Source: Vulcanimicrobiota bacterium (GTDB lineage Bacteria > Vulcanimicrobiota > Vulcanimicrobiia > Vulcanimicrobiales > Vulcanimicrobiaceae). Taken from it: a stretch of DNA of 32,944 nt. The notes beneath the pieces were generated by a model, which was not told where the DNA came from, did not search any database, and saw only the letters and a program-made list of their open reading frames with translations. This document shows positions 1,378 to 19,859 of this stretch, piece after piece. Location: the NCBI GenBank assembly GCA_003136355.1, contig PLED01000089.1, positions 1,010 through 33,953 on the forward strand, written 5' to 3'. Within the stretch, counting starts at the first letter, position 1; the number at the start of each line of letters is the position of its first letter. The position numbers were made by a program, and so were the translations under genes.

Positions 1378-2505
1378 CTAAGCGTTCCCCAAAACGCCGC
1401 GATCTTTTTGGGCGTAGATATTGAGCAAGACGCCGATAGCCGCGAAATCCGTCAGTACCGCGGATCCGCCATAGGACAAGAACGGCAGCGGTATGCCCGT
1501 GATCGGCATGATGCCGATCGTCATGCCGATATTGACGACGATGTGAAATGCGAACATCGCGACGATGCCGCTGGCGAGCAAGAAGCCGAAACGGTCGCGC
1601 GCGCTGATCATCGCGATCACGCCGCCGAACAACAGCACGCCGTAGCACGCGAGGAGCATAACGGTGCCGACGAATCCGAGCTCTTCGCCGACAACGGTAA
1701 AGATGAAATCGGTCGAGTGTTCCGGCACGAAATTCAGCTGCGTCTGCGTACCGTGATGCAAGCCGCGGCCGAACCAGCCGCCGCTGCCCACCGCAATCTT
1801 CGATTGATTCAAATTGTACCCGGCGCCCTGTGGGTCGGCCTTGGGATTGAGGAAGATCAGCAGCCGGGCTTTCTGGAAAGGCTTTAAGATATATTTCGTT
1901 TCGATGGCCAGCGCCATCGCTGCCGCTCCCGCTAGTGCGTATGCGGCGAAGTGCTGCCACTTCGGCAAGCCGAAGAAGAGTTGCGCGCTCATGATCGCCA
2001 TGAAGACGAGCGCCGTTCCGAGGTCGGGCTGTTTTGCGACGAGCAGTGCGGGAATGGCGACCATCAGCAGCGGCTTCCATAACTCGGTCAGCTTCGTGTA
2101 CTCACCTTTGCAGAGCACCCACGCAAGCGAGATCGCGAGAATGAGCTTTGCTGGTTCGGATGGCTGGAACGTACCGAGCGGGCCGAGGCTAATCCAGCGT
2201 TGCGCGCCGTGCGACGAGTGTCCGCCGCGCAAAATGAATGCCAGCAGCAGCAACGTAACGACATACAAACCCGGCGCCCACTTCGAAAAATCGCGATAAT
2301 CGATGCGCGAGAAACCGAGCATGACGCCGATGCCGAGGATCGCGTAGAGTATCTGCTTGCGATACTCGCCGGGATCGGTGTGTAAACCCGCGGACTGAAT
2401 GATCACGATGCCGAACGACGTGACGAGAATCGCGGCCACGACCAAATACCAATTGACCCGCCCAGCATACCGGCGCGCGTGCGCGCCGAAAGTCATTGTT
2501 GCCAT
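1378..2505 (-). CDS. rodA: Rod shape-determining protein RodA (SEDS family glycosyltransferase)
   Basis: Multi-TM protein with SEDS motifs: PDLGTALVF, RLLIFLNP, GWFGRGL, FVPEHSTDFIFTVVGEELGFVG, GIPLPFLSYGGS. Confidence 0.95.
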   Translation of the reverse strand: MATMTFGAHARRYAGRVNWYLVVAAILVTSFGIVIIQSAGLHTDPGEYRKQILYAILGIGVMLGFSRIDYRDFSKWAPGLYVVTLLLLAFILRGGHSSHGAQRWISLGPLGTFQPSEPAKLILAISLAWVLCKGEYTKLTELWKPLLMVAIPALLVAKQPDLGTALVFMAIMSAQLFFGLPKWQHFAAYALAGAAAMALAIETKYILKPFQKARLLIFLNPKADPQGAGYNLNQSKIAVGSGGWFGRGLHHGTQTQLNFVPEHSTDFIFTVVGEELGFVGTVMLLACYGVLLFGGVIAMISARDRFGFLLASGIVAMFAFHIVVNIGMTIGIMPITGIPLPFLSYGGSAVLTDFAAIGVLLNIYAQKDRGVLGNA

Positions 2506-2510
2506 CGCCG

Positions 2511-2888
2511 CTAGTCGATCCGCTCGCTGAAGTTGATGTGGTTGTCGAACGGATCGATGACGACAAGGTCGCGCCTGCCCCAGTCCTGCACCTGAATGCC
2601 GGGATTCATGTAGCGGTAGTTCTTGGCTTTCAACTCCGCAAGCAAAGCGTCCAGCCCATCCGTCTCGATGAGGACATGAGTTCCGGGAGTTCCGTCGCCG
2701 TGATGCTCGCTCAAAAATAAAGTAACATCGCCGCGCGATATTCCCATGAACAGCGGCGCGTTCTCATTGAAGCGATGCTCGAATTCCACCTTAAACCCGA
2801 GGTAGTCAAGATAGAACTCGCGCGCCTTGGCGACATCGAACATCCGCAAGATTGGAATCGCACGTTTTAGGGCTGGCTGGATTTCGAT
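2511..2888 (-). CDS. VOC/glyoxalase (bleomycin-resistance-like) family protein; start probably upstream of the listed TTG at 2849
   Basis: ALKRAIPILRMFDVAKAREFYLDYLGFKVEFEHRF...LFLSEHHGDGTPGTHVLIE...DPFDNHINFSERID. The first beta strand (RAIPILRMFDV) is encoded upstream of the TTG, and AGGAGG precedes ATC codons at 2886-2888 and 2880-2882. Confidence 0.85.
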   Translation of the reverse strand: MEIQPALKRAIPILRMFDVAKAREFYLDYLGFKVEFEHRFNENAPLFMGISRGDVTLFLSEHHGDGTPGTHVLIETDGLDALLAELKAKNYRYMNPGIQVQDWGRRDLVVIDPFDNHINFSERID

Positions 2889-2912
2889 GCTCCTCCTGGA
2901 CCTGGGCTCACT

Positions 2913-3146
2913 CTAGTTTCTCGACACGGTCGTTTCCGCATCTTCGCCAAGTTCGCCAGATGCGAAGGGATATAATTCTGGCTCATCGCCTCCGACGTTC
3001 ATGCGAAAGATCGAGTCATATTCGGCGTGAAAGTCTGACGCCCGGGCTGCCTCCTTCGCGTTGCTGTCGCGCGCAGCCGGTGTATCGAAAGGCCCGATTG
3101 CTTCAGCATCCACCCCCGATGTGATCAGCAAAACATAGTATTTCAT
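2913..3146 (-). CDS. Small hypothetical protein (77 aa)
   Basis: ATG at 3146 (MKYYVLLITSGVDAEAIGPFDTPAARDSNAKEAARA...) with AGGAGG 9 nt upstream; the listed longer ORF start at 3206 lacks this support. Confidence 0.65.
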   Translation of the reverse strand: MKYYVLLITSGVDAEAIGPFDTPAARDSNAKEAARASDFHAEYDSIFRMNVGGDEPELYPFASGELGEDAETTVSRN

Positions 3147-3229
3147 CAGCCATGCCTCCTGGATAGTTTTTGGGGGATCCAGGATCCCACGACGAGCGCC
3201 CTGCAACCTCCCGGCTGCGGAGGTTTCCG

Positions 3230-3700
3230 ATGGAAAATGTCAGCGAGAACCTAAAGAGCGACGTCGAGGCGAAGCATGCCTTCCAAGAGGTACTGCAGCG
3301 CGAGGGTTATTCCGCCGTGCAGATTAGCGCCTCTCCAACCGACATCGCCGCCAAGAAAGACGGTGTACGCTGGCTTTTTGAGGTCAAGTTCACGCGGGCG
3401 GAGACTCATTGCTTCGGCGCAGCAACACTAACGGAATGGGCGGCCGCTGCGGAGGACGCGGAGCACTTCCGGTTTGTGATCGCCTATAAGAAAGCCGACG
3501 GTTGGCGTTTCGACCGCTACAGCCCAGACGAATTCATGGCTTTTAGTTCGGTTCCACCATTTAAGATTTATTTCAACGTACCCATCGGAAAGAAGCCGGC
3601 CGCAATCCGAACGCGTCTTTCGAAACGCATATACCTAACAAAGTCGCGCCTGAAGCTCTTGAGCCGGCAGTTCGAGGAACTGCGCGCGCTGGAGAATTAA
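3230..3700 (+). CDS. PD-(D/E)XK nuclease-like / restriction-endonuclease-fold protein
   Basis: ATG at 3230 with GGAGG 7 nt upstream. SPTDIAAKKDGVRWLFEVKFT fits the D-(x)n-E-x-K catalytic pattern after an N-terminal helix (AKHAFQEVLQREGYSAVQIS). Confidence 0.6.
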   Translation: MENVSENLKSDVEAKHAFQEVLQREGYSAVQISASPTDIAAKKDGVRWLFEVKFTRAETHCFGAATLTEWAAAAEDAEHFRFVIAYKKADGWRFDRYSPDEFMAFSSVPPFKIYFNVPIGKKPAAIRTRLSKRIYLTKSRLKLLSRQFEELRALEN

Positions 3701-4089
3701 GTCGCCGGTGCCGGAGCTCCGTTGCTGGCGGCGCCGGATTGCGGCAGCCCGGGCTGCGCTGGTTGCAGCGAGCGCCGCTTGCGCCGGCGGCGGCGCGGCG
3801 GTCCGGCCGGGGGCGACGGCGTCCGGTTCACGGAGATGATCGGTACGTTGGCGAGCATCGCGAAGACGCTGTCTTGGTGTTCGAAGCGCACGTCGATCTT
3901 GTCGCGATCCACCTCAACGTAGCGCGAGACCACTTCGACCAAGTCGCGCTTCATCGCTTCGACCATGTCGGGCGCGAGCGAGAGATGATCGGACATCAGC
4001 ACCAGCCGCAGCCGTTCTTTTGCCGTCTCTCCGGATTTTTCGCGGCCAAATAACTTGCTCAGATTGTTGAAGACATCGTTGAAGGTCAT
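3697..4089 (-). CDS. minE: Cell division topological specificity factor MinE with basic Pro/Arg-rich C-terminal extension
   Basis: KERLRLVLMSDHLSLAPDMVEAMKRDLVEVVSRYVEVDRDKIDVRFEHQDSVFAMLANVPI is a canonical MinE core; last gene of the min operon, ATGA overlap with the upstream minD. Confidence 0.95.
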   Translation of the reverse strand: MTFNDVFNNLSKLFGREKSGETAKERLRLVLMSDHLSLAPDMVEAMKRDLVEVVSRYVEVDRDKIDVRFEHQDSVFAMLANVPIISVNRTPSPPAGPPRRRRRKRRSLQPAQPGLPQSGAASNGAPAPAT

Positions 4090-4961
4090 TTGCGGCCTCC
4101 CAGCAGCGATCCGAGTTTGTCCATGAACGTTTCTTTGTACTCGACCATCGGGGCGGGAACGTCTTCGCCCGCAATGCGCGCCGCGATCGTGTGATAGGCT
4201 TTCGCGGTTGCCGAATCGGTGCGCAGCGCGAGCGGTTCGCCTTTGTTGGTCGAAACGATGACATCGGGTTCGTCGGCGATCACGCCCAGCAGCGGCAAGC
4301 GCAGAATCGAGTTGACGTCTTCAACTGAGAGCATCTTGCCTTTGTGCACCAGATGCGGACGCACGCGATTGATGATCAGCTGCGGTGAGAATGCGTTGCC
4401 GAGCAGTCCGACGACCCGGTCGACATCGCGCACCGCCGAAACTTCCGGCGTGCAGACAACGATCGCTTCCTGGGCTCCGACCACTGCGTTCGTGAATCCC
4501 ATCTCGATACCGGCCGGGCAGTCGATCAGCACGTAATCGAACTGCTCGCGCAGTTCTTCGATCAGATCGCGCATGGACTCGGTATCGACCTCGTCCTTTT
4601 CGCGCGATTGCGCGGCGGCCAGCAAGAAAAGATTCGGGAAATTTTTGTCGCGCACGAGCGCTTCGTCGAGTTCGACTTTTTCTTCGAGCACGTCGAGCAC
4701 GTGATGGCGCACGCGGCTTTCCAAGCCCATCAGGATATCCAAGTTGCGCAAGCCGACGTCGGCGTCAACGAGTGCGACCTTCGCACCGCGCTTTGCAAGA
4801 GCGACGCCGAGATTTGCCGTCGTCGTGGTTTTGCCCACGCCGCCTTTCCCGGACGTTATGACGATTGCGCGTCCTAGAGTCACGGGCGCTCCCGACGTTT
4901 GCGCTGCGTTGGCTTGCGCGTCATCGTGCGCGACATCGAAAGGTTGCCGGAGAGGAAGCAT
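4086..4961 (-). CDS. minD: Septum site-determining protein MinD, second copy (with ~30-aa N-terminal extension)
   Basis: Deviant Walker A SGKGGVGKTTTTANLG, VDADVGLRNLDILMGLE, DYVLIDCPAGIE, C-terminal amphipathic helix ETFMDKLGSLLGGRK. Confidence 0.93.
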   Translation of the reverse strand: MLPLRQPFDVAHDDAQANAAQTSGAPVTLGRAIVITSGKGGVGKTTTTANLGVALAKRGAKVALVDADVGLRNLDILMGLESRVRHHVLDVLEEKVELDEALVRDKNFPNLFLLAAAQSREKDEVDTESMRDLIEELREQFDYVLIDCPAGIEMGFTNAVVGAQEAIVVCTPEVSAVRDVDRVVGLLGNAFSPQLIINRVRPHLVHKGKMLSVEDVNSILRLPLLGVIADEPDVIVSTNKGEPLALRTDSATAKAYHTIAARIAGEDVPAPMVEYKETFMDKLGSLLGGRK

Positions 4962-4962
4962 G

Positions 4963-5754
4963 TCAGCCTGCTTTCAGCGCGCCGATAAGCCGGCCGAAAA
5001 AGCCGGGCGCGTCGAGGTTGGTAAAGGGAATGAGGTCGCCTTCGAGGCGCCGTACGATTTTTTCGTAGATACCGCGCAAGCGATAGCCTTCGCCGAGTAC
5101 GAGCGGTTCGCCGCGGTTGGTCGTGTCGATGATCTCTTCATCGTCGGGTATGATACCGAGCAGCTCGATCGAGAGAATTTCGCAGACGTCGTCGATCGAC
5201 AGCATGTCGCCGCTGCGCACCATGTCGGGCCGGATGCGATTGATGATCAGGCGCATCGGAATCGAGCGTTCCGCCAGTTTGCCGATCACGCGATCGGCGT
5301 CGCGAATCGCGCTCACTTCGGGCGTTGTCACGACGATGGCTTCGTCGGCGCCGGCGATGGCGTTCCGGAAACCACCTTCGATGCCGGCCGGGCAATCGAT
5401 CAGCACGTAGTCGGCCATGCCGGCGAGCTCGTCGATCAGGCGCGCCATTTGGGCTTCGGTGATCGCATCTTTGTTGCGCGTTTGCGCGGCCGGCAAGATC
5501 GCCAGCGATTCGAAGCGCTTATCTTTGATCAGCGCTTGCCGGACTTGGCAGCGCCCCTCGATGACCTCGACCAAGTCGAAAACGATCCGTTTTTCCAAGC
5601 CGAGCACCAAGTCCAGGTTGCGCAGCCCGATGTCGGTATCGACCAGAATCACGCGGTGGCCGCGTTTCGCGAGCGCCGCGCCGATATTGACCGTGGCGGT
5701 GGTTTTGCCGACGCCGCCCTTGCCGGACGTCAGCACGATCTTGCGAGCCTTCAC
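4963..5754 (-). CDS. minD: Septum site-determining protein MinD, first copy (GTG start)
   Basis: SGKGGVGKTTATVNIG, VDTDIGLRNLDLVLGLEKR, DYVLIDCPAGIEGG, C-terminal amphipathic helix APGFFGRLIGALKAG; GTGA overlap with minC stop. Confidence 0.95.
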   Translation of the reverse strand: MKARKIVLTSGKGGVGKTTATVNIGAALAKRGHRVILVDTDIGLRNLDLVLGLEKRIVFDLVEVIEGRCQVRQALIKDKRFESLAILPAAQTRNKDAITEAQMARLIDELAGMADYVLIDCPAGIEGGFRNAIAGADEAIVVTTPEVSAIRDADRVIGKLAERSIPMRLIINRIRPDMVRSGDMLSIDDVCEILSIELLGIIPDDEEIIDTTNRGEPLVLGEGYRLRGIYEKIVRRLEGDLIPFTNLDAPGFFGRLIGALKAG

Positions 5755-6617
5755 TCCACCTTCTCCTTGGTTTCCTTAGCAAAACGCTCCGCCGAAACCA
5801 GCGGAACGATCGTTATGCGTTCATTCTGCACACAGGCCGCTTCGGGCTCTTTGCGAGCTCCTCGCGCGCCGGCTTCTGCCGCGATCAACGTAGCGATGCG
5901 CAGCTGCGTCGGCGACAGATCGACCGCATAGACGCGCGCACCGGCATCGCCTTGCGCTCCGGCATGCGCTACGCCGCGCAGCGATCCAAAAACCGCGATG
6001 TCGCCGCCGGCGATCAGCTCCGCGCCTGGATTGACGTCGCCGATAACGACGATGTTGCCGACGTTGTGCAAAGCCTGCCCGCCACGGAGAGTGCCCACGT
6101 GATAGAGCGTTGCGGGCGCGACCGGCGCGATCTCGACGTATTGCGGTTCCGGGTCGGGCGCGGGCGCCAGACGCCGAACGCTGCTTTCCCCGCGGCTCCG
6201 GCGCACGGCGATGTCCTTACGCGCGCCCTCAAAGTCCGGGACCAGCGACCGCGCGGCGTCCGAAAGCTTCGCCTCTCGTTTGGGCCGCAGCGCCCGGCGC
6301 CGTGCCAGCTCTTCACCGTCGTCGGGTTGGGCCGCAGTGACGCCTTCGAGCGTGATTCCGTGTTCGCTCAGAAGGGTCCGCAGCCGCGCGAGCTGATCGT
6401 CGGAGAGATTTTCGCGCCCGACGGCAGCCGTGGCTTGCGTCCCGGAATAAAATCCCGGGCGCTCGCTGAGCTTGCCCTCCAACTCGGCAAGAGCTTCGTC
6501 AAAATCGCGCTCTCCTAAGGCAATTTCAAGGCCGAGGCCCCTGCCGCGCAACACCGCCATCAGGCAGGCCGTTCGAACGCGCAAGCGGCCGCCCTGCGGC
6601 CTCCACAGAAGCCCCAC
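5751..6617 (-). CDS. minC: Septum site-determining protein MinC
   Basis: C-terminal beta-helix region: YHVGTLRGGQALHNVGNIVVIGDVNPGAELIAGGDIAVFGSLRGVAHAGAQGDAGARVYAVDLSPTQLRIA; directly upstream of minD. Confidence 0.93.
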   Translation of the reverse strand: MGLLWRPQGGRLRVRTACLMAVLRGRGLGLEIALGERDFDEALAELEGKLSERPGFYSGTQATAAVGRENLSDDQLARLRTLLSEHGITLEGVTAAQPDDGEELARRRALRPKREAKLSDAARSLVPDFEGARKDIAVRRSRGESSVRRLAPAPDPEPQYVEIAPVAPATLYHVGTLRGGQALHNVGNIVVIGDVNPGAELIAGGDIAVFGSLRGVAHAGAQGDAGARVYAVDLSPTQLRIATLIAAEAGARGARKEPEAACVQNERITIVPLVSAERFAKETKEKVE

Positions 6618-6762: not shown

Positions 6763-8820
6763 ATGACCATGCTGTTTCGTAAGATCGTCCCATCGGCGCT
6801 CATTTTGGCATTGCTGAGTGCCATATGTCCGGCACCCGCGCTCGCGCTTTCCACCGCGAACGAGGTCGCCATCGGGCGCAGCTACGATCAGCAGATCGTT
6901 GAAACCAGCGTCATCGAAACCGATCCGCTGCTCAACGCCTGGGTGCAGAGCGTCTCGTCGAAACTCTGGGCGCAAACCGCGCGCAAGGACGTTCCGTATA
7001 ACGTCAAGATCGTCGGCGACACGAGCATCAACGCGTTTTCGACGCTCGGCGGTTATGTGTACGTCAACAGCGGGCTGCTGGATTTCGTCCAATCCGACGA
7101 CGAACTCGCGGCCGTCATCGGCCACGAAACGGGCCACATCGAACGGCGCCATACCGTCACGATGCAGTCCCAATCGCAAATTTTGAGCATCCTGCTCGGC
7201 GTCGCATCGATCTTCTCGCCCTTCGTCTATCAATTCGGCAACCTGCTGCAAGCCGGCGCCATGGCGAAGATGCAGCGCATCGACGAGCTGCAAGCCGACC
7301 AGTATGGCTTGCTTCTCATGTCGCGCGCCGGCTTCGACCCCGAAGCGATGATCACGATGCAGCAGCATCTGGGAGCGCTCGAAGGCGAGCACAACGACCT
7401 CGTCACCAAATATTTCGAAAGCCACCCCGGCTCGGGCGCGCGCATTTCGCACCTGCTCGGCTATCCGGAGCTCGATCCGACAAAGGTCACGGCTCAACAA
7501 AAACTGGTACGCGCGCAACACGATCTCGATGAAGATCGCTACAATATCGCGGCCATCGACTTAAACGACATCCTCAAGACCGATCCGTCGAACCAGGAAG
7601 CGCTGCTCGGCCTAGGACAGAGCGAACTCGCGCTCGGACTCACGAGCAAGAGCGAGCAGACCTTGGGAACGCTCGCGCAAAGCACCTCGCCGCAGGTAAA
7701 AGCCGCCGCGCTTCAGCGCATGGCCGCGCTGCGTTCGATGCAGGCGCGCCGCGTCGATCTCACGCGCCCGGACCTTGCAAGTTTACGCGCGCAAGTGCAG
7801 CAGGCCGTGCAAGTGCAGGCACAAGCGCAAGCGCAAGTCGCCGCGCGGCACGATCAGGGTCACAGCCAGCTCAAGTCGCTGCAGCTTCGTCTGCAAGCGA
7901 TCCAGTATGAAATTCCCGACTTTAGCTCGATCGACATCAAGCACGGCTCGCGCCTGGAAGCGATCGTAAAAACCGTCAACGGCATGAGCCGCTCGGTCAA
8001 CAGCGCTTTCCAAGACGCAACCTCGGCCATCGACAACGTCGGCTCGATCGATGGAAAAACCAACAAACCCGACGGGCTGCTTCGCGAGAACGCGCAAATC
8101 CTGGACGAGATGCAGGCGCCGCTCAACCTGAATCCGATTCCCTCGGATTCGATTGCAATCTTTCCGTCGTACCCGCACATGATCGGGGAAATCTCGACCG
8201 CCGACGCCGACATGGTGCGTTCGGTAGACGCGGGCCGCGCGGCCGCGATGCAGCTCGACAGCGGGCTTGCCGATCTCGACGCGTTCTTCAAGCGGCTGCA
8301 GCAGATCCGCCTGAACGCATTCGGCGACGTTGATCAGTTCGACTACACCTCGCTGCTGCCGTACATGCAGAAAGCGACTGCATCGCTCGGCGCCGCGGCG
8401 ATTTCGGCGTCGCAGGCGAACCAGCTCTACGATCTGGCGAGGGCGCGGCAACTTTCGACGCGCATCACGCTGCTTGGCGTGGGAACGTCTCCGCAGCGTT
8501 ACGACACGCTACAAAAAGCGCTGAACCTGCGCTTTAGCAACGACGACATCGATTACATCGGCATGCTGCACGACAACGTCACGCCGGGCGAACTGGCGGC
8601 TGCTTCCATCATCGCGGCCGACTACAAGACGTCGCCGCAAGCGATCATCCGGGAAGCCCACGAGACCCACCGCAGCGTCATCGACGTCGCCAACGCGCGC
8701 GGCATGCATGCGCTGGCCCTTGAGATCTTTATGGGTCTGATCTATCTAGACTACACCGACGATCCCGCCAAGGAAGCCCAACCGGACGGAACCGCAACAA
8801 ATCAGAACACCGGCGTGTAG
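6763..8820 (+). CDS. M48 family metalloprotease with TPR region (BepA/YfgC-like), N-terminal signal sequence
   Basis: N-terminal hydrophobic segment; AAVIGHETGHIERRHTV (HEXXH) and DELQADQYGLLLMSRAGFDPEAM; followed by TPR-like ALLGLGQSELALG repeats. Confidence 0.9.
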   Translation: MTMLFRKIVPSALILALLSAICPAPALALSTANEVAIGRSYDQQIVETSVIETDPLLNAWVQSVSSKLWAQTARKDVPYNVKIVGDTSINAFSTLGGYVYVNSGLLDFVQSDDELAAVIGHETGHIERRHTVTMQSQSQILSILLGVASIFSPFVYQFGNLLQAGAMAKMQRIDELQADQYGLLLMSRAGFDPEAMITMQQHLGALEGEHNDLVTKYFESHPGSGARISHLLGYPELDPTKVTAQQKLVRAQHDLDEDRYNIAAIDLNDILKTDPSNQEALLGLGQSELALGLTSKSEQTLGTLAQSTSPQVKAAALQRMAALRSMQARRVDLTRPDLASLRAQVQQAVQVQAQAQAQVAARHDQGHSQLKSLQLRLQAIQYEIPDFSSIDIKHGSRLEAIVKTVNGMSRSVNSAFQDATSAIDNVGSIDGKTNKPDGLLRENAQILDEMQAPLNLNPIPSDSIAIFPSYPHMIGEISTADADMVRSVDAGRAAAMQLDSGLADLDAFFKRLQQIRLNAFGDVDQFDYTSLLPYMQKATASLGAAAISASQANQLYDLARARQLSTRITLLGVGTSPQRYDTLQKALNLRFSNDDIDYIGMLHDNVTPGELAAASIIAADYKTSPQAIIREAHETHRSVIDVANARGMHALALEIFMGLIYLDYTDDPAKEAQPDGTATNQNTGV

Positions 8821-8829
8821 TAGCCTTTG

Positions 8830-9813
8830 ATGGCTACCGCAACCGGCGAGATTTTTCGCCTCGTCCGTAAGGGCATCGACGTCCGCGCGGTCACCGCACA
8901 CACCCGCAAGCCCTTCAGGCTCTATTTGTGCGGCGACCCGGCGCTGGTAGCGTCGATGCGTGCGCTGTTGCTCTCCGGACACGACGATTCCGTACCGCCC
9001 GACGCGGCAGCTTGCTTGGAAACGATCGTTCCGGGAATGGCGCCGCTCACGATGACGCGCGAAGGTCGCGCAATTCTCTTCCTCGGACGGCGCGGCGACG
9101 CGACGGGCGCGGATTTCGCCGGCCTGCGCGCGCTCGATCTGCCGATCTTCGCGATCACTGTCGACGAAGATGCGCAGCCCATCGGTCCCGCCACCGCGCC
9201 GGTCGCGGGCGCAATCGGTGAATACCTCGTTACCGCCGTTACCAAAGAAGCATTGCGCGGACGCGTGTTTCCCCACGTGGTCGAACGCTGCAAAGGCGTT
9301 GAGATCGCGGTCGGCCGCAGACTTCCCGTCATGCGTGAAACCGTCGCCGCGAAATTAACGCGCGACGCGGCCAACAACGCGCTGAAGGTCGCGCTTGCCA
9401 GCGCCGTCGTCGACCACATTCCGGTCTTCGGTTTAGTCTTGGGCGCCTTCGCGTCGGCCGGCGACATGGTGGCGATCACCGGCATCCAAATGATGCTGCT
9501 GCTCCATATCGAGGCGGCGTACGGGCGCGATCCGGATCTCCAGCATTTGTGGCAGCTGCTTCCGGTCGTCGGCGGGGGCTTCGGCTGGCGCATGTTGGCA
9601 CGCGAGCTTTCCGGATTCATTCCAGTTGCCGGGATCGCCATTAAAGGCGCGATCGCCTACGCGGGCACGATTGTTGTCGGCGAGGGCGTAACGTTTTACT
9701 ACGAGCATGGCCGGCACATGAGCGCCGGACAGGCGAGCTCGATCTACGAAAATACGAAAAAGGACGCGCTCGGCTTCGCGCGCGACCTGATCGCCCGCTT
9801 TACAAAACGCTAA
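8830..9813 (+). CDS. DUF697-like membrane protein (C-terminal YcjF/GTPase-associated type hydrophobic domain)
   Basis: Hydrophobic C-terminal block IPVFGLVLGAFASAGDMVAITGIQMMLLLHIEAAYG...FIPVAGIAIKGAIAYAGTIVVGEGVTFYYEHG; N-terminal Rossmann-like segment lacks a P-loop. Confidence 0.6.
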   Translation: MATATGEIFRLVRKGIDVRAVTAHTRKPFRLYLCGDPALVASMRALLLSGHDDSVPPDAAACLETIVPGMAPLTMTREGRAILFLGRRGDATGADFAGLRALDLPIFAITVDEDAQPIGPATAPVAGAIGEYLVTAVTKEALRGRVFPHVVERCKGVEIAVGRRLPVMRETVAAKLTRDAANNALKVALASAVVDHIPVFGLVLGAFASAGDMVAITGIQMMLLLHIEAAYGRDPDLQHLWQLLPVVGGGFGWRMLARELSGFIPVAGIAIKGAIAYAGTIVVGEGVTFYYEHGRHMSAGQASSIYENTKKDALGFARDLIARFTKR

Positions 9814-10537
9814 GGCGCGTCAGCAACTCTTCGTCGTCTAACTGCTGCAGATCGCGCGAAACGCGCGGGCGAACGCGCGCGGCAATTCTTGACGCCATCA
9901 TAACGCGGTTAGGCGGCGCCATGGCCTCGCGGCGCGCGACGAACTGATCGATGAGCGCTCGCTCTTGGGCGCTCAGCATGAGCGGATGCGCGGTTTCCGA
10001 AGGAGCCTCCAACAGGTCGGCCAGCTTAGCCGCGCGCGCGTCACGAACGACGATCGTCCCCGCCGCCATGTCGCCGAGCCGCTTGTTTTCCGGTGAGAGC
10101 AGCGCCGCGACGGCGCTGATCGCATACAGCCCCGCGACGAACTCGCCGACGCGAATCAGGTTGCGGATCGCAACGCTCGCGAAGTCCGCCGGATAGCCGC
10201 CGTCGCGCACGACACGCAGTCCCATCAATTTTTTTCCGGGCGTCTGCCCATTCCAAAATGCTTCGAAGAGAATGAAGTATCCGAAGTAGACGATGAAGAT
10301 GATCGCTGCGATGAGCGCGATCGCCAGCGACGTTTCGATTTTCGTCGGCGCCGAAGCGTCGCGAGCCGCGGCGCCCAAGTGCGATCCGGCATAAATCAAT
10401 CCCCAGATAATGCCGAACATGACCAGCGTCTGGATCCCCACGTCAACGGACACGGCTAAGAAGCGGCTGCCCAACCCCGCAAGCTCGTAGGAGAACGCGA
10501 TGCTTTCCGGAGTGCGGACTTCCAGCGTGCGATCCAT
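9800..10537 (-). CDS. RDD family membrane protein
   Basis: GLGSRFLAVSVDVGIQTLVMFGIIWG...FWNGQTPGKKLMGLRVVRDGG...ENKRLGDMAAGTIVVRD. Confidence 0.9.
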   Translation of the reverse strand: MDRTLEVRTPESIAFSYELAGLGSRFLAVSVDVGIQTLVMFGIIWGLIYAGSHLGAAARDASAPTKIETSLAIALIAAIIFIVYFGYFILFEAFWNGQTPGKKLMGLRVVRDGGYPADFASVAIRNLIRVGEFVAGLYAISAVAALLSPENKRLGDMAAGTIVVRDARAAKLADLLEAPSETAHPLMLSAQERALIDQFVARREAMAPPNRVMMASRIAARVRPRVSRDLQQLDDEELLTRLSVL

Positions 10538-10570
10538 CGCAAGCGCGTTTCGCCCCGCGGCATGCCGTAT

Positions 10571-10586
10571 GCCCCCTTCGGGGGGC
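10571..10586. other. Perfect 6-bp GC stem with TTCG loop between divergent RDD and spoIIM-like genes
   Basis: gcccccTTCGgggggc, a C(UUCG)G tetraloop hairpin if transcribed rightward. Confidence 0.6.
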
Positions 10587-10616
10587 AGTTCGCGGCGCGC
10601 GCCGCAATACTCCGGA

Positions 10617-11582
10617 GTGGATCAGCGTTCGTTCGTGCGGCGCCGCGGCCGGGCATGGGAGCGTTTGGAGCTGTTGCTCGCCCGCACCGGGCGGCGCGGC
10701 TTACGTGCCCTGGATGCGGCGGAGCTCTTTGAAGCCGGCAAGCTGTACCGGTGGGTCACGTCGGATCTTGCTTTCGCGCAAGGTCGCGGCTACGGCGCCG
10801 AGCTGCAGCACTATCTCAACCGCTTGGTCGCGCGATCTCACGCGTTGGTCTACGGAGCTGCGGTCGAGCCGGGACGAACGCGCATCGCCCACTTTTTCAC
10901 ACAGACTTTTCCGCGCGAGTTCCGCCGGTCGTGGCCGTACGTCGGCGCGTGCGCGGCGTTGACGATCGTTTGGGCCGTGATCGCTTTCGCACTCGTCAGT
11001 GCCCATCCGGCCGACGCGTATGCGCTGCTGCCGGAGTCGAGTGTTCCATCGCATATCATCAAGAGTCTGCACGATTCGAACTTTGCGTTCACGTCGGAAT
11101 ATTCGGCCGCCATGTCGTCACTCATCATCACCAACAATATCAAAGTGGCAATCCTCGCCTTTGCCGGCGGCATCGTCACGCTCGGACTCTTCACCGTCTA
11201 CGAATTAGCGCTTACGGGTTTAATGGTCGGCGCCCTCGGCGCGCTTTACGGGCAAGCGGGCTTCGGAGCCGATTACTGGGCGACCATCGCGCCGCATGGC
11301 GTCATCGAATTGACGTCCATTCAAATCGCCGCGGCCGCCGGATTGCTGCTCGCGGCCGGCGTCTTGAATCCCGGCAGACTCAGCAGGCGCGACGCGATCG
11401 CGCAAAACGGACGGCGGGCCGGCATCCTGATCGGTGGTGTCGTGGCGATGCTGTGCGTCGCCGGCATGATCGAAGGCTTTTTCACAAACTTGCGTTTCTC
11501 GATTCCGGTTCGCGAGAGCGTCGGCGTCTTTACCGCGCTTGCGCTTATCGCGTATTTCGGTTTCGCGGGACGCGGGCGCTGA
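10617..11582 (+). CDS. SpoIIM-family (stage II sporulation protein M-like) membrane protein
   Basis: GTG at 10617 giving VDQRSFVRRRGRAWERLELLLAR...; ELQHYLNRLVARSHALVYG; NNIKVAILAFAGGIVTLGLFTVYELALTGLMVGALGALY; IAPHGVIELTSIQIAAAAGLLLA. Confidence 0.88.
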   Translation: MDQRSFVRRRGRAWERLELLLARTGRRGLRALDAAELFEAGKLYRWVTSDLAFAQGRGYGAELQHYLNRLVARSHALVYGAAVEPGRTRIAHFFTQTFPREFRRSWPYVGACAALTIVWAVIAFALVSAHPADAYALLPESSVPSHIIKSLHDSNFAFTSEYSAAMSSLIITNNIKVAILAFAGGIVTLGLFTVYELALTGLMVGALGALYGQAGFGADYWATIAPHGVIELTSIQIAAAAGLLLAAGVLNPGRLSRRDAIAQNGRRAGILIGGVVAMLCVAGMIEGFFTNLRFSIPVRESVGVFTALALIAYFGFAGRGR

Positions 11583-11583
11583 C

Positions 11584-12846
11584 ATGCGCGATCTCTTTCG
11601 CGGAAAGTTTTCCATCCGTCAGCGTTTTGAATGGCTGAGTTTGGCGATCACGCTGGCGTTCGCGCCCGCGATAGCGTTTGTGATCGGCCGCGTTTGGCAC
11701 GAAGTGATCGGCGTCTCGTCGGTGGGCGTTTTAGTCGTCGTAGCGATGGTCTATGTGACGATCGCGCGCGGCGCGCTGCTGGGCAGCTGCGTCATGATCA
11801 CCCGCACGCAGTTTCCCGAACTTTTTTCCGTGGTCGAGCGGTGCGCCTCGATGCTGGAATTGCCCATGCCGATGGTCTTCTTGCGCGACGACATCCGCGT
11901 TCCGGTCGTAGCGGTCGGTTTCGGCGATCCCTACTCGCTGATCATTTCAACGCACTGGATCGATCATTTCAAAGAGGACGAGTTGACGTTCGTCGTCGGA
12001 CGCGAACTCGGACACATCGCTGCCGGGCACGCGCGGCTGACCTCGATTTTGAGCGTCAACGGACACGAGAACGCCATCGTCTCGCTGATTTTCGGCGCCT
12101 GGCTGCGGCGCACGGAGTTTTCGGCCGACCGCGCCGGCCTGCTCTGCTGCGGAAGCACCGACGCCGCGTACCGAGCGATCGCGCTCTGCGAATTCCATTT
12201 GTTCGCGCGTAAAGTCGACCTGGCTGCCTTCGCGCAACAGCGCGTCGAGATCGCCCACGATTCGGTGCTGCGTCTGGGCGAATGGCTCGCACCCAATCCC
12301 TACGCTACCAACCGCATGGAAAGTCTGCGCGTTTTCCATCACACAGCGCTTTATGAGTATTGGGAAGAGCGCTTGGTCGCGCGGCCGGCATCGCTCGAAC
12401 CGGTCGAGCACCGGTCGGGAGAAGTTACGAAGGACGACTGCGCCAGCTTCGGCCGCCGCCTCGCGGCGATTGCGATCGATTACACGCTGGTCGCCGCGAT
12501 CGGCAATTTGGTCGTTACCAGCACCGGCGTGCACTATGGCGGAATCCGCTGGAACGTCAATTTCGATCCCGGTCCGATCGCCGAATTCTTGGCCTACAAC
12601 ATCATCCTCGTCGCGCTCGCGGGACAGACATTCGGCATGATGATCGTCTCGGTGCGCGTGACGAACACGCATTTCGGACGGCCCAGTCTCTTGCAAGTGA
12701 TTTGGCGATATCTGATCGCGACGCCGCTCTTCATCTTGAGTCTGTTCTGGCCCGGATTTTGGCGCGTCGAGCTGCACGATCGCGCTTCGGGAACGCGCCT
12801 GGTCGGCTTGGAACGGACGCTGCAGCGCGCCGCGCTGCGGGCGTAG
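11584..12846 (+). CDS. M48-like (probably inactive) peptidase domain fused to RDD membrane domain
   Basis: VVGRELGHIAAGHARL (RELGH instead of HELGH) plus EFSADRAGLLCC; C-terminal RDD: FGRRLAAIAIDYTLVAAIGNLV...LAGQTFGMMIVSVRVT...FWRVELHDRASGTRLV. Confidence 0.82.
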   Translation: MRDLFRGKFSIRQRFEWLSLAITLAFAPAIAFVIGRVWHEVIGVSSVGVLVVVAMVYVTIARGALLGSCVMITRTQFPELFSVVERCASMLELPMPMVFLRDDIRVPVVAVGFGDPYSLIISTHWIDHFKEDELTFVVGRELGHIAAGHARLTSILSVNGHENAIVSLIFGAWLRRTEFSADRAGLLCCGSTDAAYRAIALCEFHLFARKVDLAAFAQQRVEIAHDSVLRLGEWLAPNPYATNRMESLRVFHHTALYEYWEERLVARPASLEPVEHRSGEVTKDDCASFGRRLAAIAIDYTLVAAIGNLVVTSTGVHYGGIRWNVNFDPGPIAEFLAYNIILVALAGQTFGMMIVSVRVTNTHFGRPSLLQVIWRYLIATPLFILSLFWPGFWRVELHDRASGTRLVGLERTLQRAALRA

Positions 12847-12847
12847 C

Positions 12848-14188
12848 CTAGAGCAGTCCGCGCTGTTTGACCAGCAAATACCGGTCGATGAGCGCGGTGG
12901 TGAGCTCGCGTGCCGGCACGTCGATGACTTGCACGCCCAGACGCTGCAAGATCGCGGCAGCCGCGCGCCGTTCGTCCCGCAGTTCGAGCGCGACCGCGGC
13001 CGCGTAGACGTCCGAGCTGCTCTTCGGGGTAATCTCCAGCGCGTGGTCGATCGCGCGATCGTTCATGAAGACGCAGATTACCACGTGCCGTTTGGCCAAA
13101 ATGCCGATCTGCGCGAGCACGGAGCTCTGCGCCACGGGATCGACCATGTCGGTAAAAAAGACGATGAGGCTGCGCTTGCGCACGTGGCCGCGCACATAGG
13201 CGAAAGCCCGCGCGTAGTCCGACTCTTCAAACCGCGGCTCCAAATCGTGAACCTGCGCGGCGATTGAGGAGATGGACCGTCCGCTGCGCGGAGCCTGTGC
13301 CCGCAATATCTCGCCCGCAAACGCGACCAGTCCGATCTTGTCGTTTGCCAGCGACGCGATCGACGCAACCGAAAGCGCCGCGGTGATCGCATAGTCGAAC
13401 TTGCGCTGTTCGTCGACGCGCGGCGTCATCAGCCGTCCGGCATCTAAAACGACCATGACGTTTTGACTGCGCTCCACTTCGTACTCGGCGACCATCAAAC
13501 GGCCGCGCCGCGCCGTCGCCTTCCACTCGATCGAGCGGAATTGATCGCCCGGCGCCCAGTCGCGCAGGTTTTCCAGCTCTGTTCCGGTGCCGCGCAAACG
13601 CATGCGCCGCAAGCCTGCTTCAATAAGCCGGTTACGAACGTGCAACGCACCATACCGTTCCACTGCCGAGAGATCGGGAGAGACGCGGACCGGCTGCGGA
13701 GCGTTGAAGCGCAGCCGGCGGCTGAGAAATCCGAATTGGTTTTGCGCGGTGACGTACATCGTGCCCAACGCGCCGGTACCGCGCGCGACCGGAATTACGC
13801 TGCGCTCGGCGGACGCTTCGCTGTGCGGAGGGACCGAAACCATAATCTCGTCTTGTGGATACCGTAAGACGCGGCAATCGCTTTCGATCAGGTTTAAGCT
13901 TAGCGCAGCATCCGACCTATTGCGGATGCGATAGCGCAGCACGCCCGCTGCGCGAAGCGCGAACGGTTCGGGCGGCTCGCGTTCGATCTCGAGCGAGGCA
14001 CGCGCCACCCCGGTGAAAGCATCGGCAAGCGTGCCCGCAACCAGCGCGGCCGCGCATAGCGTTGCCAAAATCAAAAATGCCGGAAGCGCGCCGCCGATGG
14101 CCAGCAGGATCGCGAGTATGGCCAGCGCCCAATACGTGCGCGGCGCGGGCCACACGCCGGCGAAGCGCGCTTTAGGGTGCGTCTTCAC
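12848..14188 (-). CDS. DUF58 domain-containing protein (vWA-like)
   Basis: GTGTELENLRDWAPGDQFRSIEWKATARRGRLMVAEYEVERSQNVMVVLDAGRLM. Confidence 0.92.
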   Translation of the reverse strand: MKTHPKARFAGVWPAPRTYWALAILAILLAIGGALPAFLILATLCAAALVAGTLADAFTGVARASLEIEREPPEPFALRAAGVLRYRIRNRSDAALSLNLIESDCRVLRYPQDEIMVSVPPHSEASAERSVIPVARGTGALGTMYVTAQNQFGFLSRRLRFNAPQPVRVSPDLSAVERYGALHVRNRLIEAGLRRMRLRGTGTELENLRDWAPGDQFRSIEWKATARRGRLMVAEYEVERSQNVMVVLDAGRLMTPRVDEQRKFDYAITAALSVASIASLANDKIGLVAFAGEILRAQAPRSGRSISSIAAQVHDLEPRFEESDYARAFAYVRGHVRKRSLIVFFTDMVDPVAQSSVLAQIGILAKRHVVICVFMNDRAIDHALEITPKSSSDVYAAAVALELRDERRAAAAILQRLGVQVIDVPARELTTALIDRYLLVKQRGLL

Positions 14189-15137
14189 GCGGAATCGGGA
14201 CCGACTCCAAGATTTCGCGCACGACCTTCACGGCCGTCACGCCATCGATCTCCGCTTGCGGCGCGACGATCAAGCGATGCGGCAGCACGAGCGCAGCCAC
14301 GTCTTTGACGTCGTCGGGAGTTGCATAGTCGCGCCCGTCGATCGCTGCGGACGCTTGCGCCGCGCCCAGTAGTGAAACGCCCGCGCGCGGGCTAGCTCCC
14401 AGACTCAGGCCGCGATGGGATCGCGTCGCCGCGATCAGGTCGTAAATGTACTGCTGCACCGGAGCAGCGACGCGGACGCCGCGCACTTCGCTTTGCGCCG
14501 TCGTGATTTCATCGGGACCGGCGATCGGCTTCAACGCTTTCGGCTCGATCGCGCGCGCGTCGAAACCTGCGGCGACACGTGAAAGAAGCTCGAGTTCGGC
14601 CGCCGGCTGCGGATACCCGGCGATCGCCATCACCAAGAATCTGTCGAGCTGCGCCTCGGGCAGCGGGTAGGTGCCTTCATACTCGATCGGATTCTGCGTG
14701 GCGCAGACGAAGAACGGGCGCGGCAGCTGCAGCGGCACGCCGTCGATCGTGACGCGACCCTCTTCCATCGCTTCGAGCAGTGCCGACTGCGTTTTGGGAG
14801 GCGTGCGGTTGATCTCGTCCGCCAGCAAGAAATTCGTGACGATCGGTCCGGGCCGCATGCTAAACTCCGCGCTCTGCGGATTGAAGACGGTCGTCCCGAC
14901 GACGTCGGCCGGCATCAAGTCCGGCGTGAATTGGATGCGGCGGTACTGCGCACCTAACAGTGCGGCTAAGGCGCGGACGGCAAGCGTCTTGCCCGTTCCC
15001 GGAACGCCTTGGATCAGCGCGTGCCCGCGCGCCAGCAGCGCGACGAGAAGCGCGAATGTCAATTCGTCGCCGCCGACGATAATCTCGCGCATTCCGACGC
15101 CGACGCGTTCAGCTACGTCCCGAGCGGTCGTTACCAT
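14172..15137 (-). CDS. MoxR-family AAA+ ATPase
   Basis: [91 protein letters not shown]. Confidence 0.96.
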
Positions 15138-16195
15138 TCGTAATCCTTTCGCAACTGCGCGAAGATCGTTCCGGCCAGCAGGACCTCGCGCGGTCCGGCA
15201 TCCCTTCGTTCCCCAAGCCGGCGCAACTCATCGAAGGCGGCGCGGCCGCGTTCATCGCCAGGCGGCGGCGAACGAAAACCGGCGGCGGCTCGCGCCAGCC
15301 GTGTGATGACGTCGTGCGCCGCACCGCCGCGCTGCAGCATTCGCGCCAGCGATTCAATGTACGCCAAGGAATTGCGTTCGTCGTCGCGTTCGAGCGCTCG
15401 CGCCGGCGCCAGCCGCACGTTCGCGGCGACGATCGCCAGCAGCAATGCCAGCAGAGCGATGATAACGGCGGCAATCACCGGCCGCGGCATCACTTGCCAA
15501 AACGTGCGTCCGGCGGCGTATCCATAGACGCGCTCGTCGAACTGCGGAGCTCCCGCGGCGGCGAACAGATCGTAGGCGAACGCGGCGTTGTCGTACGCGG
15601 CCAGCTGCGCGTTGTCAAAGAGGGCCGGCGTCACGACCTCCACGATCGTTCCGCGGCCGTGCTTGATCGAAACGGCAACCGCTCCGGCGCGCCCTGCCAG
15701 CAGCACCGAATGTTTGCGATCGCACCCCGTGCGTAAGACCGACGCAAAATCGCCGCCGACCACCCGGCGCGCTCCGTGAAAACCGCACGCCGTCCACGCT
15801 TCCTTACTTGCGGACGCGCGCGTCTTGGGAAGCCCGAGCGCATCGCGAGTGAGGGGAAACATGCTTCCGAGCACGATGAGTTTTCCGCCGCGCCGCACCC
15901 ATTTCTCCAGCGCGGCCGATTCTTTCGCCGAAAGAACCGACGAGTCGATGGTGTAGTCGCCCGCGAAAACGACCGTCGCGCGCGCCGGCAACTCGCCCAG
16001 CGGCAGCTCGTAGCGCTGCGGGTTCACTCCCTCGCGCTGCAAGAATTCGTACAGCGCAGCATAGCCGTTGGCTCCGGTATCGTAGGTCGAAGGAAACGAC
16101 GTATGCGCGCGCGGCGCCGTGGCGCGCAGCGCTGAAACCGCCGTCAAGAGCAGCAGCGCCGCGACTAAGATCGCAATCTCGGTACGGTTACGCAT
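15131..16195 (-). CDS. DUF4350 domain-containing protein
   Basis: Start ATG at 16195 (MRNRTEIAILVAALLLLTAV...); FPSTYDTGANGYAALYEFLQREGVNPQRYELPL; WVRRGGKLIVLGSMFPL; position between MoxR and DUF4129 genes. Confidence 0.8.
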   Translation of the reverse strand: MRNRTEIAILVAALLLLTAVSALRATAPRAHTSFPSTYDTGANGYAALYEFLQREGVNPQRYELPLGELPARATVVFAGDYTIDSSVLSAKESAALEKWVRRGGKLIVLGSMFPLTRDALGLPKTRASASKEAWTACGFHGARRVVGGDFASVLRTGCDRKHSVLLAGRAGAVAVSIKHGRGTIVEVVTPALFDNAQLAAYDNAAFAYDLFAAAGAPQFDERVYGYAAGRTFWQVMPRPVIAAVIIALLALLLAIVAANVRLAPARALERDDERNSLAYIESLARMLQRGGAAHDVITRLARAAAGFRSPPPGDERGRAAFDELRRLGERRDAGPREVLLAGTIFAQLRKDYEW

Positions 16196-16823
16196 GCGAG
16201 AGATCGACCGGCAGCGCGACATACGCGTCGTGCGCTTCCATCCATTGTCCGTGCGCGACGGGCATTTCGGCGTAAAACGCCGCAACGAACGGGCGAGCGA
16301 TCGCGTCGAACGCCGGCAAAACCGAGGGCTGTGTTCCGCGAAGCGTGCGCCGCCACTCGTTGACGGTGCGGCTCGGATCCTCGCGCGCAACTCCCAGCCG
16401 CTCCAAACGGCGCATCGCCGCGGCGAACAGCAATGCGACCGCCATGCGGTAGTCGCCGAGCGCCGCGGCTTCGCGGCTCAATTCGTAGAGCGCGCCAGGG
16501 TCGGGCGGTTCCGGCAACGCGTGCGCGGCATCGGTCCGCCGCGCGTCGCGAATGGATCCGAGCGCCAGACGTACCAGCACGACGACGACGACGGCAATCA
16601 GCGCAAAAGCCAGCGCGTCGCCGACAATCACGCTCGCGCGGTTGCCGATGTGCACGTGCGAGAAAAGCGCGTCCCACAGGCGCGACCACAAACCGCGCAG
16701 CCAATCCCAAAACATTTCCCATAAGGTGCGATGCGTGGACGGGATCGCCACCCGAAAACGTCTCTGCAAAAGGATCTCGCGCGCGAGATCGCGCGCTCCG
16801 AGCGGCGGCCGGCTCGCGGTCAT
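16188..16823 (-). CDS. DUF4129 domain-containing membrane protein
   Basis: One TM, C-terminal EAAALGDYRMAVALLFAAAMRRLERLGVAREDPSRTVNEWRRTL; neighbours MoxR/DUF4350. Confidence 0.8.
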   Translation of the reverse strand: MTASRPPLGARDLAREILLQRRFRVAIPSTHRTLWEMFWDWLRGLWSRLWDALFSHVHIGNRASVIVGDALAFALIAVVVVVLVRLALGSIRDARRTDAAHALPEPPDPGALYELSREAAALGDYRMAVALLFAAAMRRLERLGVAREDPSRTVNEWRRTLRGTQPSVLPAFDAIARPFVAAFYAEMPVAHGQWMEAHDAYVALPVDLSHA

Positions 16824-19457: not shown

Positions 19458-19859
19458 GTGAAAAACACCACACCGAAAATCGACCGCGCGACTTTGCTCA
19501 AGGGCGGGGGAACCGCAGCACTGGCAGCAGTGCTCGCCGGCACCATGGAAGCGGACGCCGACGCCTGCTGTTTTCCCATCGACCTGAGCTATGGTGATAA
19601 TCTTACTAGCATGGCAGCAACACCGATCGAAAATACGAGTTCCCGGAGAAGAAAAACCGGCGCGACGGAATTCACTGCGGTGAGAATTTGGGCACCGAAG
19701 CCGGGTGGCGGCGGTCCTGCCCAGCCCACCACGCCGTGGACGCTCCTTTTTACCGCTTCCGAAGCATTTGTGTCCGGCAATGATGAGAATGGGAATCCGC
19801 ACGGGAGCCACGGCAAGCCCAAGGCTCTAGGCGGAGAAATTTGGGTGTACGTTAAGTAG
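19458..19859 (+). CDS. Small hypothetical protein with N-terminal hydrophobic (signal-like) segment
   Basis: GTG at 19458 preceded by AAGGAG; VKNTTPKIDRATLLKGGGTAALAAVLAGTMEADADACCFP... Confidence 0.6.
   Translation: MKNTTPKIDRATLLKGGGTAALAAVLAGTMEADADACCFPIDLSYGDNLTSMAATPIENTSSRRRKTGATEFTAVRIWAPKPGGGGPAQPTTPWTLLFTASEAFVSGNDENGNPHGSHGKPKALGGEIWVYVK

Follow-up and report, generated by a model that had tools for sequence, protein, structure and literature searches.

A Min operon with two adjacent minD genes

The window, by which we mean the whole 32,944-nucleotide stretch of DNA that was analyzed, contains a Min operon in which all of the min genes lie on the minus strand in the order minC-minD1-minD2-minE, followed downstream by rodA. 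The septum-site inhibitor MinC is encoded at 5751-6617 (TIGR01222, 111.7 bits against a cut-off of 95.3; MinC_C, PF03775). Next come minD1 (4963-5754, with a GTG start) and minD2 (4086-4961), each of which encodes a full-length MinD ATPase, and minE (3697-4089; TIGR01215, 73.7 bits against a cut-off of 49.3; PF03776). The next operon gene, rodA (1378-2505, minus strand), is conserved in synteny and matches TIGR02210 with 402 bits, which is also above cut-off. All five genes exceed the equivalog cut-offs of their own NCBIfam families.

The junctions described in the initial annotation proved to be exact. minC and minD1 overlap by GTGA (5751-5754), such that the GTG start of minD1 overlaps the minC stop, a single base (4962) separates minD1 from minD2, and minD2 and minE overlap by ATGA (4086-4089). 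The real minC start is probably an internal ATG near 6560, given that the MinC_N domain starts only at residue 23 of the long ORF. The minE product has an N-terminal amphipathic segment and a canonical contact helix, AKERLRLVLM, in which alignment reveals that the equivalent of R21 is kept; it combines this R21-type contact helix with a dimerization domain. FtsZ is also present in the genome.

Two features of the minE region vary among relatives. The C-terminal extension of MinE in the window is long and of low complexity, consisting of PPRRRRRKRR and a proline/alanine-rich stretch (3697-3830), and the median length of MinE in Eremiobacterota is 145 residues in genomes with one MinD and 138.5 residues in genomes with two, with a median of 95 residues in the other sampled phyla. 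In the genus of the window, the interval between minE and rodA holds an insertion of approximately 1.2 kb (2511-3700) that carries a glyoxalase-superfamily gene (2511-2849, minus strand; Pfam Glyoxalase_7), a small ORF of no assigned family (2913-3206, minus strand), and, on the plus strand, an ORF that matches NOV_C weakly (3170-3700). minE and rodA lie close together in many other class members.

Both copies have the features of a MinD ATPase

The two MinD proteins share 51% identity over 260 amino acids. They match TIGR01968 (minD_bact) with 364 bits for MinD1 and 360 bits for MinD2, well above the equivalog cut-off of 212.9 bits, and the same family is matched by all 59 members of the alignment. 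As had been read from the sequence initially, SGKGGVGKT, GLRNLD, and DCPAGIE are present in both proteins, and their C-termini, GFFGRLIGALKAG and FMDKLGSLLGGRK, can form amphipathic helices. The hydrophobic moments of these helices are 0.51 and 0.46, as compared with 0.54-0.64 in single MinDs, and at the level of sequence they are predicted to be membrane-targeting, with mean net charges of +1.4 for MinD1 and +2.2 for MinD2. Across 77 distinct sequences of each paralogue, K11, K16, and D40 (E. coli numbering throughout) are invariant in both.

By sequence, the nearest solved relatives of both proteins are the MinDs of Aquifex, Pseudomonas, and E. coli. An AF2 monomer model of MinD2, built with 59 aligned sequences, has a mean pLDDT of 89.6 and places the C-terminal helix at residues 279-287. 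The best PDB matches to this model are all MinDs from the same three sources, including MinD-MinE complexes. FlhG/FleN proteins share the deviant Walker A ATPase superfamily with MinD1 and MinD2, and they also have a membrane helix and an N-terminal extension, as does MinD2. However, FlhG/FleN and ParA rank far behind MinD among the matches, with FlhG/FleN at 24-26% identity in the structural alignment. The possibility that one copy is an FlhG- or ParA-type protein is rejected on these grounds: both copies lie above the MinD equivalog cut-off, neither groups with FlhG or ParA, the PDB matches are MinD, and no FlhF above cut-off was detected in the genome.

The tandem pair occurs throughout the class Eremiobacteria

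Named relatives at 96-98% identity belong to Candidatus Eremiobacterota, and the window itself belongs to the class Eremiobacteria. The 149 genomes of the phylum that were scanned comprised 112 class genomes with MinD and 5 without, and 20 genomes outside the class with MinD and 12 without. At least two MinD matches were found in 110 of the 112 MinD-bearing class genomes, and in the other two (G095 and G069) the operon is cut by a contig edge; by comparison, each of the 20 MinD-bearing genomes outside the class has exactly one MinD. We read 97 class loci directly, representing 77 distinct sequences of each paralogue from many assemblies. The order minC-minD1-minD2-minE is found in all 97, with rodA next wherever the contig extends that far, and the minD1-minD2 junction is 20 bp or shorter in 72 of the 77 distinct loci. 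Thus, uncultured soil bacteria of this class carry two diverged MinDs side by side in the Min operon, and this is so class-wide.

The recurrence of the gene order across the class indicates that the arrangement first seen in the window is not due to chance. An assembly duplication or artefact, which we consider to have a negligible chance of being correct, is rejected given that the same arrangement is found in so many independent loci and assemblies. Absence of the second copy from close relatives had been raised as a possibility; instead, it is present in every class relative whose operon is uncut. Two loci depart from the common pattern in other ways. In one draft genome, a frameshift splits MinD2 and runs into the minE frame (L049:5793-7127, from the same genome as L142), which is probably a sequence error. 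Another genome, G110, carries the complete minC-minD1-minD2-minE-rodA operon twice, once on each of two contigs (L160 and L161), either because the bin is mixed or because the whole operon was duplicated.

MinD is present in 171 of 200 Firmicutes genomes, and 8 of these have a second copy, at a separate place in 8 of 8 cases (G167, G177, G209, G276, G302, G311, G326, and G350, each with a diverged second MinD). MinD is found in 40 of 121 Chloroflexota genomes and is single-copy every time. No tandem MinD pair was detected in these 171 Firmicutes and 40 Chloroflexota genomes, and all 40 named loci outside the phylum likewise have a single minD. This survey covered Eremiobacterota, Firmicutes, Chloroflexota, and the 40 named loci, and we do not claim that the pair is unique to the class. 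A search of the open-licence literature, with most subscription papers outside its reach, returned no account of tandem MinDs in a bacterium. A paper on Clostridioides difficile MrpAB, followed as a lead on a MinD paralogue, does not concern one.

The paralogues probably derive from an old duplication and are under purifying selection

A phylogenetic tree and a synteny comparison had been proposed as checks on the initial annotation. In a tree of 26 MinD1, 26 MinD2, and 26 single-copy MinD sequences, MinD1 forms one clade (support 100/99) and MinD2 forms another (100/100), with the longer stem branch leading to MinD2. Families f1, f2, and f3 split identically within the two clades, and pairwise distances among MinD1s correlate with those among MinD2s (r = 0.81). 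A recent duplication is rejected because the pair is class-wide and the paralogues form separate, fully supported clades.

In approximately unbiased (AU) tests, the topology joining MinD1 and MinD2 in a single clade has a slightly better likelihood (p = 0.51), and the alternatives were likewise not rejected. The segment from R155 to N181, which follows helix 7, is informative in this respect. It is 19 residues long in 58 of 58 single-copy MinDs, 18 or 16 residues long in MinD1, and 17 residues long in all but one of the MinD2s. The simplest reading of these lengths is that a shortening after helix 7 arose once, prior to the duplication, and is common to both copies. A one-residue shortening that is shared by the paralogues and absent from all 58 single MinDs favors one duplication within the lineage, and the data fit one ancient tandem duplication that preceded diversification of the class.

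Comparisons within the genus give dN/dS values of 0.02-0.05 (minD1) and 0.04-0.12 (minD2), and both copies are under purifying selection. These observations bear on the idea that the two genes simply provide more MinD of the same kind. Although both copies are intact and reside in one operon, as dosage or redundancy would have it, we consider this very improbable: the copies are only about 51% identical and carry differences that are fixed class-wide, each lineage is under purifying selection for its own residues, and the copies show no trace of gene conversion, MinD1-MinD2 identity being 0.538 within a locus and 0.536 between loci.

Fixed differences adjoin the MinC and MinE contact sites

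E53 of MinD meets R21 of MinE (PMC12462528), and both members of this published contact pair are kept, by alignment, in the Min proteins of the window. Helix 7 residues S148, D154, and I159 contact both the RSGQ motif of MinC and the MinE contact helix (PMC6803595), and L48, V147, and L194 affect MinC activation and the response to MinE (PMC10897333). The initial annotation had suggested that one MinD might serve as the partner for MinC and the other as the partner for MinE. The residues of these sites argue against such a clean split, since both copies retain E53, N45, D152, D154, N222, and G224. E53, D154, M193, N222, and G224 show little or no variation across the 77 distinct sequences of each paralogue, N45 is kept in 76 of 77 MinD1s and 77 of 77 MinD2s, and D152 is kept in 77 of 77 MinD1s and 76 of 77 MinD2s.

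We then define fixed changes relative to positions that are nearly invariant in 58 single-copy MinDs. In MinD1, N54K is found in 77 of 77 sequences and L159 is changed in all 77, to K in 64 and to M in 13, with K in the window. In MinD2, D59H is found in 76 of 77 sequences, V57 is replaced by R or K in 61 of them and by another residue in nearly all of the remainder (R in the window), and P212A is found in most f1 members. These fixed changes adjoin the published MinC and MinE contacts. Helix 7 remains canonical in MinD2 (L159), and V57 and D59 after E53 remain unchanged in MinD1. A permutation test gives no significant linear clustering of the MinD2 changes around residues 54-61 (p = 0.42). 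Because the differences are fixed, complementary, and adjacent to contact sites, functional specialization or heterodimerization of the two MinDs is plausible.

The MinD-binding motif of MinC in the window is RGGQ in place of RSGQ. RGGQ is found in 59 of the 62 loci that have K159 in MinD1 and a readable motif; all 13 loci with M159 have RSGQ instead, as do most single-MinD genomes. The coincidence of RGGQ with K159 is suggestive only, as the two probably fall on one branch and would amount to one event and not to independent evidence.

MinD2 also has an N-terminal tail ahead of the core (4878-4961, minus strand; approximately 28 residues in the window). The tail is present in all orthologues examined; it has low confidence in the AF2 model and is probably disordered. 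Its universal presence, the fact that MinD2 has the longer stem and is less constrained, and the position of rodA after the operon would suit a scenario in which one copy, more likely MinD2, positions another membrane cargo such as the RodA elongation machinery and the other copy runs the classical Min cycle. However, the sequence of the tail is not conserved, MinD2 keeps the residues of its MinE and MinC sites, and minC-minD-minE-rodA is an ordinary arrangement in single-MinD Firmicutes, which makes the presence of rodA uninformative. We regard this scenario as improbable.

A possible MinD1-MinD2 heterodimer

The P-loop strand of the MinD fold is flanked on one side by the strand preceding helix 7 and on the other by the strand preceding switch I and E53. 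In a two-fold sandwich dimer, helix 7 of one subunit would therefore face the E53 edge of the other, and fold topology would place residues 54-59 of one subunit beside helix 7 of its partner. Since each paralogue has altered a different part of this docking surface and has largely kept the other part, we infer that a MinD1-MinD2 heterodimer with unequal MinC and MinE sites is the likeliest explanation for the pair, although its chances fall a little short of even.

According to this heterodimer model, an ancestral minD would have been duplicated in tandem, with both copies kept as presumably active, membrane-targeted ATPases. MinD1 and MinD2 would be co-translated and would assemble mainly into one sandwich heterodimer on the membrane, in which the two binding edges for MinC and MinE would no longer be equivalent, one being near-canonical and the other altered. 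MinD2 would contribute its canonical helix 7 (L159) and an altered edge beside E53, and MinD1 would contribute intact V57 and D59 after E53 and an altered helix 7 (K or M at 159). Hydrolysis of ATP would still be triggered by MinE acting from one side, and the unequal sites would serve to recruit MinC. In E. coli, MinE on one side of the MinD dimer is enough to trigger both ATPases (PMC6803595), so a dimer that retains a single good site could be functional.

Homodimers of either copy are formally possible as well, since K11 and all of the ATP contacts are kept in each copy. This leads to the main rival explanation, which is that MinD1 and MinD2 form two homodimer pools that divide the labor, differing in how tightly they bind MinC or MinE, how long they stay on the membrane, or how fast they hydrolyze ATP, and that are coupled in one oscillator or gradient. 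Each copy keeps every examined residue for ATP-driven homodimerization along with its C-terminal amphipathic helix, the helix 7 and post-E53 regions have diverged differently in the two copies, and the predicted membrane-targeting tails differ slightly in charge. Nevertheless, neither copy has been lost in any uncut class operon, which suggests mutual dependence, and tight co-translation favors mixed dimers, the interface residues being common to both proteins. On balance, we consider separate homodimer pools to be unlikely, if a serious contender. A stronger version of the heterodimer model is comparably doubtful: the heterodimer would be obligate, complementary degeneration having left it one good and one impaired MinC/MinE site, and the outcome would be a naturally asymmetric Min ATPase that is unable to form symmetric MinCD copolymers and whose patterning is unlike that of the E. 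coli oscillator.

Relationship to known Min systems

Min is a textbook two-component pattern-forming system based on a symmetric MinD homodimer. Relative to canonical MinCDE systems (E. coli minB; minC-minD-minE-rodA in Firmicutes), the gene order here is the same save for the extra minD, and the MinD-binding motif in the MinC C-terminus, the catalytic and membrane features of MinD, and the MinE contact helix are common to both. Canonical systems have a single MinD gene, whereas Eremiobacteria have two diverged tandem MinDs with class-fixed differences beside the site, namely L159K/M and N54K in MinD1 and V57R/K, D59H, and the N-terminal tail in MinD2, as well as a shorter segment after helix 7 in both. 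We file the arrangement as a variant of the Min system and not as a new kind of system.

To our knowledge, archaeal MinDs occur without a MinC-MinE operon. Haloferax volcanii has several MinD homologues in one genome (PMC11621097, PMC11312570), as is the case here, but here the MinDs are bacterial and their genes sit in tandem, flanked by minC and minE. The proposed natural asymmetric dimer would have its laboratory counterpart in E. coli MinD heterodimers engineered to have only one site for MinE or MinC, for which one site is enough for hydrolysis or division inhibition (Park et al. 2012 and Park et al. 2015, as cited in PMC6803595 and PMC6771821). Those heterodimers are point mutants of one gene, whereas here the asymmetry of the putative heterodimer would stem from two natural genes. 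A class-wide pair of co-evolving MinD genes would provide a test, with natural proteins, of whether two MinE/MinC sites are required in a MinD dimer, and it would allow one to ask whether MinCD copolymers matter and how a second ATPase alters Min patterns. The division-site machinery of Eremiobacteria may run on a two-part MinD.

Other genes in the window

Neighboring the Min operon, the region at 6763-16390 encodes two M48 peptidases, two RDD-domain proteins, SpoIIM, a DUF58/VWA protein, a MoxR ATPase, and a DUF4350 protein. Farther along, adjoining recR and dnaX, an 898-amino-acid protein (19852-22548) combines an adenylate/guanylate cyclase domain with a STAND/NB-ARC-type ATPase and TPR repeats.
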